Assembly (NCBI GenBank): GCA_013368375.1
Contig: JAACJP010000010.1
Span: forward strand, 124,001-188,000
Source of the DNA: Tricholomella constricta
Taxonomy: Eukaryota; Basidiomycota; Agaricomycetes; Agaricales; Lyophyllaceae
Direction of reading: 5' to 3'
Length of the DNA stretch: 64,000 nt
A model generated the notes under the pieces. The model had not been told where the DNA came from, did not search any database, and was given only the letters and a program-made list of their open reading frames with translations. This document shows positions 25,875-36,769 of this stretch, piece by piece; the first letter of the stretch is position 1, and the number at the start of each line of letters is the position of its first letter. Both the position numbers and the translations under genes were made by a program.

Positions 25875-26311
25875 ATGATTTTTCGCACCTCGACTGCTGC
25901 ACTAGCCTTCGCCCTTTCCGTCGCGTCGTTCTGCGGCAGCGCTGCCGCCGAAAATTGTGCTCAGTGCCCGTCCTCAATTTTTTATTCGGGACAAACACGG
26001 TCCCTGACATCTTCCTTCCAATCGAGCGTTGGTAATGTGGTGCAGTGCAAGTAAGTCATTGTCTCGCCCTTGGAAAGAATGTCGCGTTCATGCATGGTCC
26101 TCGCGTTTAGCTATGGCAGCCCGCCTATCTCAGGCTTCAATCCCTTCTGCGATTACCAGGTGCGTTTTCAATTACTGAGCACGTTGTTGTAGCCGTTGCT
26201 CGTGATTAATGGAATCGTCGTATATAGAACGTGGATGGATCGTTGACGTTGACCAACACCGGCGGGGCGTGCCCCTTTTCCACGACAGTAGTCGTAAAAG
26301 CATTCTGTTAA
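25875..26311 (+). CDS. Small secreted Cys-rich protein 1
   Basis: Three exons (25875-26050, 26111-26159, 26228-26311; 176, 49 and 84 nt) encode 102 residues. A signal peptide of about 25 residues (MIFRTSTAALAFALSVAS...) is followed by a compact domain with the pattern NCAQCPSSIFYSGQTR, VVQCNYGSPPISGFNPFC and DGSLTLTNTGGACPF, with six cysteines in the mature part. The repeated SG-Q-T and TNTGG strands suggest a small beta-sandwich. Two paralogs lie within 11 kb, with identical exon-2 length. A further GTAAGT donor directly after the stop suggests a 3' UTR intron. Role unknown; such proteins in fungi are often cell-surface or effector-like. I do not recognise a named family. Confidence 0.85.
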
Positions 26312-27065: not shown

Positions 27066-27154
27066 CTAAGCGCAATTTTCCCTTCATTTTCACCTCTCAC
27101 ATAGTCGCTTCTTCTTCGAGTAACTCGTCTACAACACACAATGCTCTTCCGCAT

Positions 27155-27163
27155 CTCTGCAGC
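27155..27163. repeat. Left target site duplication, 9 bp
   Basis: CTCTGCAGC directly precedes the left inverted repeat and is repeated exactly at 33080-33088 after the right one. Confidence 0.93.
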
Positions 27164-27313
27164 CAGACTCCAAACCAGTCGCGGGGCGCTTAGTTAATAC
27201 GATTAGATAATATACCGAGACTATTCCGAAACTTGCAACACTATTTACACGCCCCAGCGACTGGCACAACTTGTAAGTTTGGTCGTGCTTGCCATCACCG
27301 GAACTCGCGGCAC
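27164..27313. repeat. Left terminal inverted repeat, 150 bp
   Basis: It matches the reverse complement of 32924-33079 with one visible difference: the right copy has six extra bases (AAAATT) after ...CACTATTTA. Each repeat also contains its own internal inverted repeat (CCAGTCGCGGGGCG near the outer end, CGCCCCAGCGACTGG about 75 bases further in), so each end can fold into a hairpin. Confidence 0.93.
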
Positions 27314-27397
27314 GCCAACGCCTCCCTGATATCTGCGCGCCCTTGCAGTCCATCTGACCTGACAGTTCATCCATTCAGGGAAACTTCATTTCCATAT

Positions 27398-30089
27398 ATG
27401 TCAACTTTGATTTATACCGTTCCTTCCCTCTCTAAACTGCAAGAGGAAGTCAGAAATGTCTGGGGAATACGGCCCTGCTTTTTTCAATCGCGAGACGCCA
27501 TAATTCAACTCGAACGAAATAAAAACCTCATCACGATCTCCCCAACCGGCTCTGGCAAAACCCTCACATTCTGCATCCCATTATTGTTCAATGGCAATGG
27601 GATAATAATCATTGTGACTCCTCTCAACATCTTGGGAGACAAAAATGTAGACGACATGGAAAAATTGGGCATCAGTGCTGCAAATATAACGGGAGAGACC
27701 GCAACGGATGGAATATTCAAGGTACGAAATATCCTTACTTAATGTGGTCGTAACTTGACCGAGCTGCATGGCACAGGAAATTGAAGCCGGAGACTATCGC
27801 GTCGTCATAGTTAGTCCCGAGAAAATCCTGAAGGACAAACGGTTTCGTGATCTATGGCAATCGAAAAAATTCACCGCACGTCTGTTCAACATCACCTTCG
27901 ATGAGGCTCACTGTATCAGTGAATGGGGAAATGATTTTCGCCCAGAGTATGCACAACTTGGACAGCTCCGGTGGTTGGTGCCGGCTCACGTACCCTTCCA
28001 CATTGTCTCCGCTACTTTGCCAGAGCTGATACTTAAAGACGTTCAGGCAAAGCTAAATATAAAAGCAGACAATACAACCATCATACATCGCTCGAATGAT
28101 CGGCCGAACATCCACTTCATGGTAGAAGAGATGCAATCACCCGCAAACAGCTGGCTCGACCTTGATCGTATACTGCGGCTTCATGCAAACAGTGGTGAAA
28201 ATCCACCGAAATTTATGGTCTTCGTAAATAAGCGACGTGAGGCAGAAGATGGTGTCGAACATGAATGGAAATCCCTACCACAGCACCTACGAGAAAAGGT
28301 CGTCTGGTTCCATTCTGGCATGAGTGCCGAGTTTCGCGCCAAAATGATTCAAAAAATACGTGTCGGCGAAATATGGGGCATACTGTGCACGGACGCAGCA
28401 GGAATGGTGAGTACTGATCATCATTCCATTGAATGATAATGACTTACGAGATGTTCCTCAGGGTTTGGACATTTCAGATATCGAGCTCGTTATCCAGTGG
28501 CGGTATACGCCATCGTTATGTACCGTTACACAACGTTTTGGTCGAGGAGCACGCCAGGGAGACAAAGAAGCAACGGGGATCTACCTTGTCGAGCCAAAAT
28601 ACTTCGACCACTGCAAGAAGAAGGTCAGTGGTATCCAAAAACGCAAGCGGGGTAGGACAGCCAAGGAGAGGAAGCTTCGAAGGAAAGTGCGAGACAACGA
28701 GCAATGTCTTGAGCAGGACTCGGATGAATTCGTGTCTGATAGTGATGCTTCCGATGGCGAGGGTTCAGGAAATGCGTTGGCTACTCCTGTAGGTGGGGTG
28801 AATCAAGCCTCAGACGTGGCAATGGAAATAGGTCACGATTCGGGCTTACCTCAATCCATACACGATGCAGCACCTGGAGCTCCCCAAAAGGTCCCACATC
28901 CACTGAAGACAGGCCTACTACCCTCCCCCTACTCGATGTCTCCGGAAGAATATGAGGCGACGGCAATGGACACCTTCATTAATGCTCGCTTGCGAGGTAT
29001 CTGTCGGCGCACCGTGACTGATCACTATTTTGGCAACCATAAGCTGGGTGCGTAGTCCATTATGATTGACTCACCATTCTCATATAACGTGTTCCACAGA
29101 CAAAGAGAAATACTGTTGTCGTCGATGTGAACGGAGGCTGTCACGTTTATGTTGTGACACTTGTAATCCAGGATCATTTGTCCTTGTGTCGCTCAACCAT
29201 CCAGCTGTCAAGGCCACAAGAGGAAAACGAAAGGTAAAAGCAGATAAATACACCATGAAGCCCCACGACCATGGCCTGAAGGATGCGCTCGATGCCTGGC
29301 GTACCAAGCAACTTGCAACTGACTTCGAGGGGGATGACTTCTTTGGACCGCAAATGATTCTCTCGGATGACCTCCTCGATCGCATTGTTGACCTTGCCCA
29401 CTACTGCAAAATTCCAGACGTCGAAGCTCTCCTTCACCAAACGAGTTGGCGCTATGCCTCGAAATATGGTCCCGCCATTCAAGAACTTGTCTTCAAATAC
29501 CAGCCAGAGCCGCCATTGGCTCCAACCCCTGCTCTCATTCCTCCAACTACCGAGTCAGCTTCTCAGGCAGTGCCTGTGACGTGTTCTCCACTTTCTTTGC
29601 CCACTAAAAAGGCTCGTCTTTGTTCTGCCTGTGGCTCATTCACGCATATTGGTATGTTCTCTCAATTTTTTCGATCGTGTTTCACGAAAACTGACAAACT
29701 CGCTCAGCATCGAACAAAGTCTGCCCTAACTACAGGCCGGCGATGCGAAGGCAGATAAACGACGAGAATGTAGACCCCGCATCAACGAGCACTCCTAGTC
29801 AGCCACTGGCTTCGAAGTCCAAGCAGCAACGACAATGCCGTGCATGTGGCGAAATGGGTCATATTGGTGCGTCGCTTTTGTGCTTTCTATGTATATACCT
29901 ACCTGACTGTCCAATATGTGACTAGCTTCGAGTAAAAAATGTCCTGCGTGGAAACCAAAGGAGGATCGGGTGAAGCTGGATCGCAGGTCTCTATCCTCGT
30001 TGCACCCAGGATGCTCGGCATCATCAACAGATGCTCCTCCTGTGCCAACGGTCAGTGGTCTGCCATCAGATCGTTTCCTTCGACGCTGA
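27398..30089 (+). CDS. RecQ-like DEAH helicase with C-terminal zinc knuckles
   Basis: Six exons (27398-27721, 27777-28406, 28462-29047, 29100-29651, 29708-29866, 29926-30089), in phase, 804 residues. RecQ motifs in order: motif 0 region RPCFFQSRDAI, Walker A SPTGSGKT (about residue 50), FDEAHCISEWGNDFRPEY (about 149-166), HIVSATLP (about 185), FMVFVNKRREAE, ILCTDAAGMGLDISDIELV and QRFGRGARQGD. After the core comes a Cys cluster (YCCRRCERRLSRLCCDTC, about 516) in the place of the RecQ zinc domain, then two CCHC knuckles (CSACGSFTHI...VC and CRACGEMGHI...KC). RecQ enzymes unwind DNA 3'-5' using ATP. Here it likely assists transposition or repair of the excision site; the knuckles may bind nucleic acid. 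Its 3' end overlaps the convergent DUF6589 gene by 38 bases. Confidence 0.93.
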
Positions 30090-32853
30090 TTGGTTCGTCC
30101 TCCACATCAGCTGTAGATTCTTGTTTTTTTTGCACCATATCCATCCCTACCGCTACCTGATCACGAACGACGGTGTCCGCTTTACGCCCTGCTTTGAATG
30201 AGTGAGCTTTGTGCTGTTCAAATTCCTTTCGAAGCTTCGAGATGGTTTTCGTCATGTCAGGATGAGCATGCCGAATTGTCCGTTGCTCAAGATGAAAGCC
30301 GTTTTCGACTGTCACATGGCATTCACGGTACAGTTCGATTAGTGGAGACTCGCTGATGATGTGATCGATAGTTCGATTTGAGCTGGAACCGCTGTAAATA
30401 ACCTTTGCGGTTTCTGTCAGCTGATCTTTCCATCCAGGCTCGACTCACCTTTGTATACAGATTGTTTCTCTCAACAAGCCAATCCACACCACGAAACCCA
30501 TGTTCTTTTCCAGTCGGATTGCACAGCCAATTCATTCGTAGAACATGCCTGGTGCGTCCAAGTCAATTTAGTTCAATTCAATTCAAACACTAACATGTTG
30601 AACCAGGGCACGCACGAGAGTTCGGCTGGGTACACATCACGGAGGTTGCGCATGAAGCGTACCATCTGGGAAGCATATTTATGCTTTCCAGTGGCCTTGC
30701 ACAGGTAGACGAATGGCAGGAAGGTTGATTCAACACGCCCGATATCTCCCGCATTCATCGCGTGGCTGAGTTCAAGGTAAAGAAGCTCATCACGATTTCT
30801 TTGTATCTGGTTCTCAAAGATCTGGTCCCGCTCCCGCATTGGCCTACGACGAGCAATGCTCAGTGTAGGAGTGGTTGCGACATACTTCTCCACTATCGCC
30901 TCCGACATCTCTACAATCAGATCCCAGGTGGGTTTTGCCTTCGCAAATTCCAATAACGAGGTCCATTGACGGTTACGGCTTTGTGCTTCTAGGCGCCAGC
31001 AATCCAGCAACGAGGCCCATGCATCGTGATGAATTACATCGTGAGTGAGTCGAAATCCTGGCTTGGTCCCAAACTTTACAGTATCACCCGGTCGTAAGAT
31101 ACCAACATGCTGGAATAGGCTGTTGGCATCTGTTCGCGTGTTTTTAGGTTGGGCCCAAGTCCTCCACAATGCATCTGCACAGGCCATCTTGAAGTGAAAC
31201 AGCCCCGGCACGAAGATGGTGAATTGGAAGCGTCGCTTCGGTGTCTCCTCGATGCGCCGTGAGCGCTTCACGGAGTCAAGCCGTTCCTTCGTCAAAAGGT
31301 CACCGTGGACGATAAGCACTGATTCTGACATATCTACATCCTTTCTCTCTTCGAAACCCTTCTGTTGAGGTTCTCCGAGGCCTCCCTGTCTCAGTAAGCA
31401 TTCCACAACCTCAATATTTCCGTCAGGTGTTGACTCCTTTATGTCCATAGCTCGGCATGGGATCTGGGCTGTCTGGTGAAGAGGAATTTGGTTAATAGGC
31501 TCCGGTTGGCCAAGTTCTCCCTTCAGATATGCAAAATGCTCTCCGCGGCGAACTAAGATATCGCGCACATGCCAGGCGAAGTTCGCTCGCAAGCGGCTTA
31601 GGTTCGACTGTCCATCTCTTTGGCGTGTGATGCTATCCTTATGAAATACTTCCAGGTCCTCGACGTCGATCTGAAGTGGCTGCTCAACGGGGGACGGATT
31701 GAGCGGATCCTTTTCCCATAGTTTCTGCGAACATCGAAGGACCCGGGGATCTTCGACACCATACAGAGGGATGGCCGTTGCGGAAGTGGCACTGACAAAT
31801 GTTGACTGCCGTTGGACGGTCGGCTCTGACGTTCTGAAGTTGATATCAAAATTATCGTATGCGAGGGACGTCGTGAGCGACTGGACCGCATTCCTTAACT
31901 TTCGAGAGCTATCCTGGGACAACGACTTCACTGCGTTGAGTATCGAGGAGATGCTGATGGAGAGTCCGGCATGTGCAAGCGTGTCGATGACCTTTTCGGG
32001 AACCGCACATGAATGGTAGAAGACACCGAGGATGCCCTGGAGGTAGTTGCATCGTTCGTTCGTGTTCTGTAAGAAGATACTGATTGTGACGACAGATTTC
32101 TACGATGGACAAGACGTCAACGGCCTTCCAAATTTTTCATCATAGACATACGATGGTTGTGAGTGCTGCGTTCCGTTGCGCTGCTCGGCGACGGCGCTTT
32201 TTTGCTTTCTTCTCTGCCTCATATGTTCCACCATCTGAACCATCTTCATCGTTACCTTCACCTTGATGATTTACAACCCCCAATCTGCGATAATCCCCAC
32301 TGCTGCCATCTCCTTCTCCATTCTGCTCTCTTTCCTCATCTATTTCCATCGAGATATCGACTCCTCCGAGCTCACCAAGGTCTCCTTCTTGTTCAGGTGC
32401 TCCCTCGCCGCCTCCAAGTTCTGCCTCAACCCGCCGACGCTCTGGATTAGCATCAAGAAGTGAACCAACGAGGGCCCACAGCTGAGGAGCAGTTTTCTTC
32501 ATCCTCTCGGCCGCTTTCATCATAAACGATCCCTCGAGATAGTCGGTTTTAAGATTTCCTGCATTGAAATGCAATCCATTCTGGATTTTCGACAGCTCGT
32601 GAACTTCCTTAGAGAGCCTTTTGCGCAAGACGGTGAAGGCCCACAGGCTCACGGATGATGTCGGATCATTTTCCTCAAGGGCAGAACATATGTGCGAGAG
32701 ATTGAACATAATGGATTGTCGAGCATTTGCAGCCTCGGAGTCGGGGGTACTGTCGCTTTTCAGGATGATTTCAACAAAAGTTGAAAGGGTAAACCCGTTG
32801 TAAGTCAAGCAGGTAAGGACGTTCTGAACACGAAGATTGATATCCATAGGCAT
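30052..32853 (-). CDS. DUF6589 protein, proposed transposase
   Basis: Four exons (32853-32152, 32099-30616, 30548-30449, 30402-30052), in phase, 878 residues. The N-terminal third is helical with an acidic stretch and a basic KKAKKRRRRAAQR just before the first intron, possibly nuclear import. The remainder matches the DUF6589 family of Agaricomycetes: SLAYDNFDINFRTSEP (about 313), LIVHGDLLTKERLDS (about 497), FVPGLFHFKMACADALWRTW, KFGTKPGFRLTHDVIHHDAW, ELSHAMNAGDIGRVE (about 677-691), RMNWLCNPTGKEHGFRGVDW and NRTIDHIISESPLIELYREC. Conserved acidic residues in the order D(316/319)...D(501)...E/D(about 691) could form an RNase H-like DDE site; this is inference. Being the only other gene between the inverted repeats argues for a role in mobility. 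The family has no established function. Confidence 0.88.
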
Positions 32854-32923
32854 TTGTCATAGCACTACATGTATTGCCTCTAGATATACAAGTCTACATG
32901 CATATTCCGCGAGGCAGGAGGTG

Positions 32924-33079
32924 GTGCCGCGAGTTCCGGTGATGGCAAGCACGACCAAACTTACAAGTTGTGCCAGTCGCTGGGGCGTGTAATTTTAAAT
33001 AGTGTTGCAAGTTTCGGAATAGTCTCGGTATATTATCTAATCGTATTAACTAAGCGCCCCGCGACTGGTTTGGAGTCTG
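32924..33079. repeat. Right terminal inverted repeat, 156 bp
   Basis: Reverse complement of the left repeat, with a six-base insertion. It ends GGAGTCTG at 33079, immediately followed by the target duplication. About 70 bases separate it from the DUF6589 start, so this repeat must also contain that gene's promoter. Confidence 0.93.
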
Positions 33080-33088
33080 CTCTGCAGC
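33080..33088. repeat. Right target site duplication, 9 bp
   Basis: CTCTGCAGC, identical to 27155-27163. Confidence 0.93.
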
Positions 33089-33552
33089 CACAGTAACACT
33101 TGCGCTCACCGTCGCATCACTTTGCGGCAGCGCCGCCGCCACGAACTGCGCCGTGTGCCCGCCCTTGATCTTTTACGCGGGACTCACTCGCACTCTCACC
33201 TCACAGAAGCAAAGCTCCCAAATCGGCTACGTCCAATGCAAGTAAGTATTGACTGGGCGGTCCCCTGGCCATTCATTCGCACTGATGAGTTGGCGCTGAT
33301 GCACGTATCGCCTGGACAGCTTTAACAATCCACCCATCTCCGGGTTCTCCCCTTATTGCGTGTACCGCGTGAGTACCACCACATCCCAGAACGCTGGCCT
33401 AGGAGCCAGCGATATTTCTTTCGTATATGAACTCGGTCACTAAACCTTCTGTCGTATAACAGAACTCGGACGGCGCACTCTATCTCACCAACACAGGTTC
33501 CTCGTGTCCCAACCCCACCACGGTGGTCAGTCAAACGTCCGCATGCAAATAA

Positions 33553-36293: not shown

Positions 36294-36769
36294 TCAGCAT
36301 GAGGTTCCGGATTTCGAGATGACGGTGATTGGATTGGGGCACGCGCCGGGCAGGGACGTGAGAGTCGGGCCAGTGTTGGTGAATATGACTTGTCCGTCCA
36401 AATTCTATGGCGTCACGTCAGTATCATTCCCAGCCCAGGCGCACCAGTGCGCAGGTGGAACGTCAGGCGAATTGGAGCAGGTGCGTAGAGTACATACGCG
36501 GTAGAGACAGGCTGGGGAGAACCCTGAGATGGGCGGGCTGTCGAAGCTGAATGTGATCGGTCAACGCGTCCTGGTCCACAGAACAAGCCGTGCACTTACT
36601 TGCACTGGACGGTGCCAGCACTGGTGGTGTACTTGGTGAGGGTCAGGGTACGGGTCTGGCCCGCATAGAAAAGCGACGGCGGACAGATACCGCAGAAGAT
36701 CGCTGCAGAGCTTGCGCTGAAAGACACGATCGAAAGAGCTAGGGCGGTAGTAGTTACAGAGAAGCGCAT
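36294..36769 (-). CDS. Small secreted Cys-rich protein 3
   Basis: Three exons (36769-36600, 36546-36498, 36404-36294; 170, 49 and 111 nt) give 109 residues. A signal peptide (MRFSVTTTALALSIVSFS...) precedes FCGICPPSLFYAGQTRTLTL, VQCNFDSPPISGFSPACLYR, DGQVIFTNTGPTLTS and GACPNPITVISKSG. It is the third paralog of the genes at 25875 and 27141, in opposite orientation, with the same 49-nt middle exon and the same intron phases. A longer loop before GACPNP distinguishes it. The function is unknown. Confidence 0.88.

Follow-up and report, generated by a model that had tools for sequence, protein, structure and literature searches.

A two-gene DNA unit at positions 27164-33079 of a 64,000-nucleotide stretch of the Tricholomella constricta genome (the whole stretch is hereafter called the window) moved as a whole, and is best explained as a DNA transposon, likely of the AcademH type, in which a DUF6589 protein would act as a cut-and-paste transposase of the DDE (aspartate-aspartate-glutamate) class and a RecQ-like helicase would assist it. 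The limits and insertion footprint of the element are listed below; other contigs of the assembly are given by C numbers.

27164-33079: whole element, a two-gene DNA unit
27155..27163, unstranded: left target-site duplication, 9 bp, CTCTGCAGC (from the sequence and the table of ends)
27164..27313, plus strand: left terminal inverted repeat, 150 bp, first bases CAGACTCC, found again at C6
32924..33079, minus strand: right terminal inverted repeat, 156 bp, with one 6-bp insertion relative to the left arm
33080..33088, unstranded: right target-site duplication, 9 bp, CTCTGCAGC

The inverted arms of the window copy were 100% complementary across two blocks of 84 and 69 nt, the 6-bp insertion in the right arm being their sole difference, and the 9-bp duplication was perfect on both flanks. 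In a control performed on the same window, an exact 9-bp flank match occurred in one of 387,661 random YAG/CTR end pairs. Only two genes were present inside the element; both were open and convergent, and their 3' ends overlapped by 38 bp. A search of the 44-Mb genome with the inverted repeat returned five matches. Two lay in the window; the other three, on contig C6, corresponded to one further copy (C6:1060880-1068778), which was 99.4% identical over 5838 bp; the number of copies obtained by this search is thus at least two. The C6 copy was flanked by its own perfect 9-bp duplication (CGGCTGCAT), unlike that of the window (CTCTGCAGC). There are two unlinked copies, each with its own duplication, and therefore the entire two-gene unit has moved. 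An earlier note on this DNA had described inverted repeats of 150 and 156 bp, a perfect 9-bp duplication and two open genes, all of which were present, and had regarded the pair as one self-mobile unit, which the two separately flanked copies bear out; the repeat, which it had considered might occur only here, recurred on C6. The C6 copy was decayed, with single-base indels in exons 1 and 2 of its DUF6589 gene; relative to the window copy it had 19 substitutions, of which 14 were G-to-A or C-to-T. Its left repeat was interrupted by a 1986-bp insertion (C6:1060975-1062960) with an 8-bp duplication (GCCCCAGC). This insertion was hAT-like by the length of its duplication, and its DUF659 match was only sub-threshold (E 0.098).

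The DUF6589 gene was located on the minus strand (32853-30052) and comprised four predicted exons and three GT-AG introns, encoding 874 amino acids. The exon joins and GT-AG introns of both genes of the element are predictions from sequence.

32152..32853, minus strand: DUF6589 exon 1 (exon prediction)
30595..32066, minus strand: DUF6589 exon 2, with the conserved motifs YDNFD, HGD, GLFH and GDIGRVE (PF20231, E 4.4e-76)
30449..30548, minus strand: DUF6589 exon 3 (exon prediction)
30052..30402, minus strand: DUF6589 exon 4 and stop (DUF6589 tail match under the cut-off)

A single-sequence fold of exon 2 was unusable (predicted local distance difference test, pLDDT, 33.8) and was replaced by an alignment-based model of the DUF6589 relative P0004. 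This model was confident and resembled the folds of Hermes, P-element, ISCth4 and RAG1/Transib, the nearest being Hermes, the P element and ISCth4; the structural comparison was limited to the top-ranked chains in Foldseek, and families missing from that list are not thereby excluded. Acidic residues were conserved in DUF6589 at D304/D307, D509 and E699, which we infer to constitute the D-D-E triad. Both features of the DDE class, an RNase H-like core and three conserved acidic residues, were found by prediction only, from the P0004 model and from conservation. Because the modelled relative has a DDE-transposase-like fold with conserved D-D-E-type residues, the DUF6589 protein is very likely the transposase of the element, a role that the earlier note had proposed. 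When the full-length relatives P0004 and P0025 were compared with Pfam at E <= 10, DUF6589 alone was listed and no other family. No MULE domain was found in the window DUF6589 exons (E <= 1) or in the two relatives (E <= 10), and neither the exons nor the relatives matched a hAT Pfam family. One search returned 384 DUF6589 proteins at E <= 0.001, and all of the 120 among the matches listed carried PF20231.

The helicase gene was located on the plus strand (27398-30089) and comprised six predicted exons and five GT-AG introns, encoding 804 amino acids.

27398..27721, plus strand: helicase exon 1 (PF00270 over the spliced protein)
27777..28406, plus strand: helicase exon 2, with the DEAH box motif (exon prediction)
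28462..29047, plus strand: helicase exon 3, with the end of Helicase_C (exon prediction and domain search)
29100..29651, plus strand: helicase exon 4 (exon prediction)
29708..29866, plus strand: helicase exon 5 (exon prediction)
29926..30089, plus strand: helicase exon 6 and stop (exon prediction)

The 804-residue protein carried DEAD and Helicase_C domains, with matches to PF00270 (E 1.6e-20, above the cut-off) and PF00271 (E 2.2e-16). Its best NCBIfam model was TIGR00614 recQ_fam (E 3.2e-51, yet under the curated cut-off of that model), and its closest solved structures were RecQ proteins. The zinc knuckles (PF15288, best stretch residues 739-760) spanned exons 5 and 6. When the tail of the helicase was used as the query, only three proteins were retrieved, one of them 94% identical and from Tricholomella constricta.

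The DUF6589 family search gave 38 matches in this genome and none in 14 control genomes, the match counts being lower bounds. The 38 matches were grouped into 18 places and then into 17 loci, with C2:2058231 and C2:2072591 taken as the halves of one element; at this position (C2:2058231-2072947), about 13.5 kb of other DNA apparently interrupted the DUF6589 gene. The helicase search gave 36 matches, and 15 of the 17 loci had a helicase no more than about 2 kb away from DUF6589; most DUF6589 genes of this genome thus lie beside a helicase gene, and not away from RecQ genes as the earlier note had considered. The two genes were convergent at 13 loci (C61, C35, C19, the window, C7:561314, C2:531750, C52, C38, C6:1066152, C21, C11, C2:2058231 and C9, where the helicase was recognised from open frames and a Helicase_C match) and were arranged in another order at two (C6:937736 and C13, the latter with overlapping fragments). 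Several of the paired helicases were just 22-29% identical to the window helicase, and the C38 match was weak (E 1.3e-4). No helicase match was listed at the C5 locus, though its copy is nearly identical to that of C21 and has the same end, and no helicase was found within 20 kb of C7:612734. Helicase matches without a listed DUF6589 nearby were identified at seven places (C2:768908, C15, C82, C85, C71, C12 and C53). Four of them (C15:847810, C82:4933, C85:2719 and C71:73790) were RecQ-like, with near-equal scores and 535-residue open frames, and perhaps represent subtelomeric helicases.

The breakpoints of the related elements were established by comparing copies and, as a second route, by searching for YAG-type ends accompanied by a duplication. 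Among the 15 elements whose flanks were searched, including those of the window and C6, seven had a 9-bp duplication, one a 10-bp duplication and two an 8-bp duplication, and five had none; C19, C38 and C6:937736 were outside this tally. The C7 (GCCCAACAC) and C21 (AGTCTTTAT) duplications measured 9 bp, with the element ending in A, or 10 bp if that A was counted with the duplication. The C35 duplication (ACCACGCAAC) was 10 bp long, that of C2 (TAAGTAGC) was 8 bp, and that of C52 (CTGCCGGT) was 8 bp, or 9 bp counting one shared A. YAG-type ends and a duplication were also found for C11:49416-55644 (TATAGCCAG), in which the first 100 bp of both ends were identical, and for C9:114718-120840 (GGATCATCT). 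Situated 21 bp from the latter full-size element was an 861-bp copy with an internal deletion (C9:113836-114696), related to the C7/C21/C5 family and flanked by its own 9-bp duplication (TGTCAAAAG). No duplication was found at C5, both ends of which were located, or at C61, where the right end was not located. For C2:2058231, C13 and C7:612734, flanks of several kb yielded no accepted pair of ends and duplication; C2:2058231 and C7:612734 each gave one 9-bp candidate whose ends agreed at only 3 and 4 of 8 bases, respectively, and which was not counted, and C13 gave none. The first bases among the element ends were CAGACTCC, CAGGCTCC, TAGTCTCC, TAGTCTGC, TAGGCTCA and TAGTCCTT. Further matches to the C21-family end were observed at C21:90566-91359, C58:105007-106466, C1:877776-882083 and C23:688087, and are perhaps old or non-autonomous copies.

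The element is quite probably an AcademH, likely a new family of it, matched on the descriptions given in papers and not on transposase homology; the gene layout and end sequences of AcademH were not part of this comparison. According to extracts of the papers, the form in which all of them are cited here, AcademH is a helicase-encoding lineage present in fungi (Kojima 2020 as described in PMC10045372 and PMC10799480), has 9 or 10 bp duplications seemingly related to its helicase (PMC10045372), and is low-copy in Basidiomycota, Ascomycota and Mucoromycota (PMC10799480). Fungal Academ elements encode DEAD/DEAH and recQ_fam helicases, most copies carry recognisable domains, e.g., PF00270 and recQ_fam, and they are often annotated as host genes (PMC6416283). 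Putative non-autonomous Academ insertions were described in another mushroom, citing Kojima 2020 (PMC8290104). The window element agrees with the AcademH descriptions on the helicase, the 9-bp duplication (10-bp in one related copy), the low copy number and the Basidiomycota host (Agaricales, Lyophyllaceae). It also shares the PF00270/recQ_fam helicase and the host-gene-like look with the fungal Academ elements, although the extract of PMC6416283 describes neither DUF6589 nor the end structure. The earlier note knew of no named superfamily encoding such a pair of genes; this view is not supported, because the papers describe AcademH with a helicase and 9 or 10 bp duplications, and fungal Academ helicases are of the recQ_fam type.

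The relatives on C2 and C52 carry 8-bp duplications, outside the 9 or 10 bp described, and so differ from AcademH in this length. Pfam lists no second family for P0004 or P0025; the folds nearest to the model are those of Hermes, the P element and ISCth4; and no paper in the limited collection of literature searched mentions DUF6589. The last three points would suit DUF6589-RecQ elements that form a superfamily of their own and not part of Academ, having gained the helicase and the 9-bp duplication independently, with a transposase from a separate hAT/P/Mutator-like RNase H branch. We regard this as unlikely, since the element agrees with the published AcademH, as far as the extracts describe it, in the type of helicase, the length of the duplication, the group of hosts and the small number of copies. 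It is just as doubtful that DUF6589 and its convergent RecQ partners represent such a non-Academ superfamily across Agaricomycetes, with the Pfam family being a hidden class of DDE transposases. The predicted DUF6589 fold, in which a large helical insertion interrupts an RNase H core, is like that of hAT (Hermes) and P-element transposases, but no Pfam match supports the likeness at the sequence level, and the duplications of hAT and P elements are 8 bp long, in contrast to the 9-bp duplication and helicase partner found here.

Long inverted repeats and 9-bp duplications are marks of Mutator-like elements, and both lengths agree with those of the window element, with ISCth4 among the structural matches; the presence of a helicase and the lack of a MULE domain in the Pfam comparisons given above make a Mutator-like identity very improbable, and MULE was set aside on the Pfam result. 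Even less credible is KolobokH, a type of DNA transposon that also has a RecQ helicase, occurs only in fungi and makes TTAA duplications (PMC9587614). It was refuted by the 9-bp duplications CTCTGCAGC and CGGCTGCAT, which contain no TTAA, and the helicase here is a separate, convergent gene. The seven places at which RecQ-like matches lie apart from any listed DUF6589 would be compatible with a chance pair of host genes enclosed by inverted segmental duplications. This explanation has hardly any probability left, as it was refuted by the second insertion with its different duplication, and a helicase adjoins DUF6589 at 15 of the 17 loci, with ends of the same type in other families.

For an AcademH-type transposon with a DUF6589 transposase, the following course may be proposed. 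The DUF6589 protein would bind the inverted repeats, and the D-D-E triad, placed in an RNase H core that contains a helical insertion, would cut the ends of the element. The protein would then join these ends to target DNA with a 9-bp stagger between the two strands, and repair of the resulting gaps would leave the 9-bp duplication. The RecQ-like helicase might unwind or remodel the DNA, either at the cut ends or at the gapped joint, and thereby allow host repair to be completed; we propose this assisting role with low confidence.

The window copy was inserted among codons predicted to encode the signal peptide of a small secreted protein, and it split this gene into two pieces.

27141..27163, plus strand: 5' part of the interrupted secreted-protein gene, reading MLFRISA
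33081..33239, plus strand: 3' part of exon 1 of the same gene

From the right duplication, the secreted-protein reading continued as SAATVTLALTVASLCGSAAA onward. An empty allele was sought in the assembly with both 500-bp flanks, and the window itself was the only match; neighbouring paralogues were used as the uninterrupted comparison in its place. Two paralogues in the window (25893-26048, plus strand, and 36602-36757, minus strand) were uninterrupted at the corresponding place. Together with the split gene (27141-33239), they form a cluster of three small secreted-protein paralogues.

What is usefully added is a predicted function for DUF6589, the likely kind of element (AcademH) having already been named. 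Pfam lists DUF6589, which many mushroom genomes encode, as a family without known function, and reading it as the transposase of helicase-carrying Academ-type transposons gives these proteins a predicted one. It also offers a search rule, by which such elements would be recognised from a DUF6589 gene and a RecQ-like helicase gene that face each other between YAG-type ends, and a caution that some RecQ genes in fungi are carried by transposons. The intact window copy and the decayed copy lend themselves to studying what a DDE transposase would need a helicase for.
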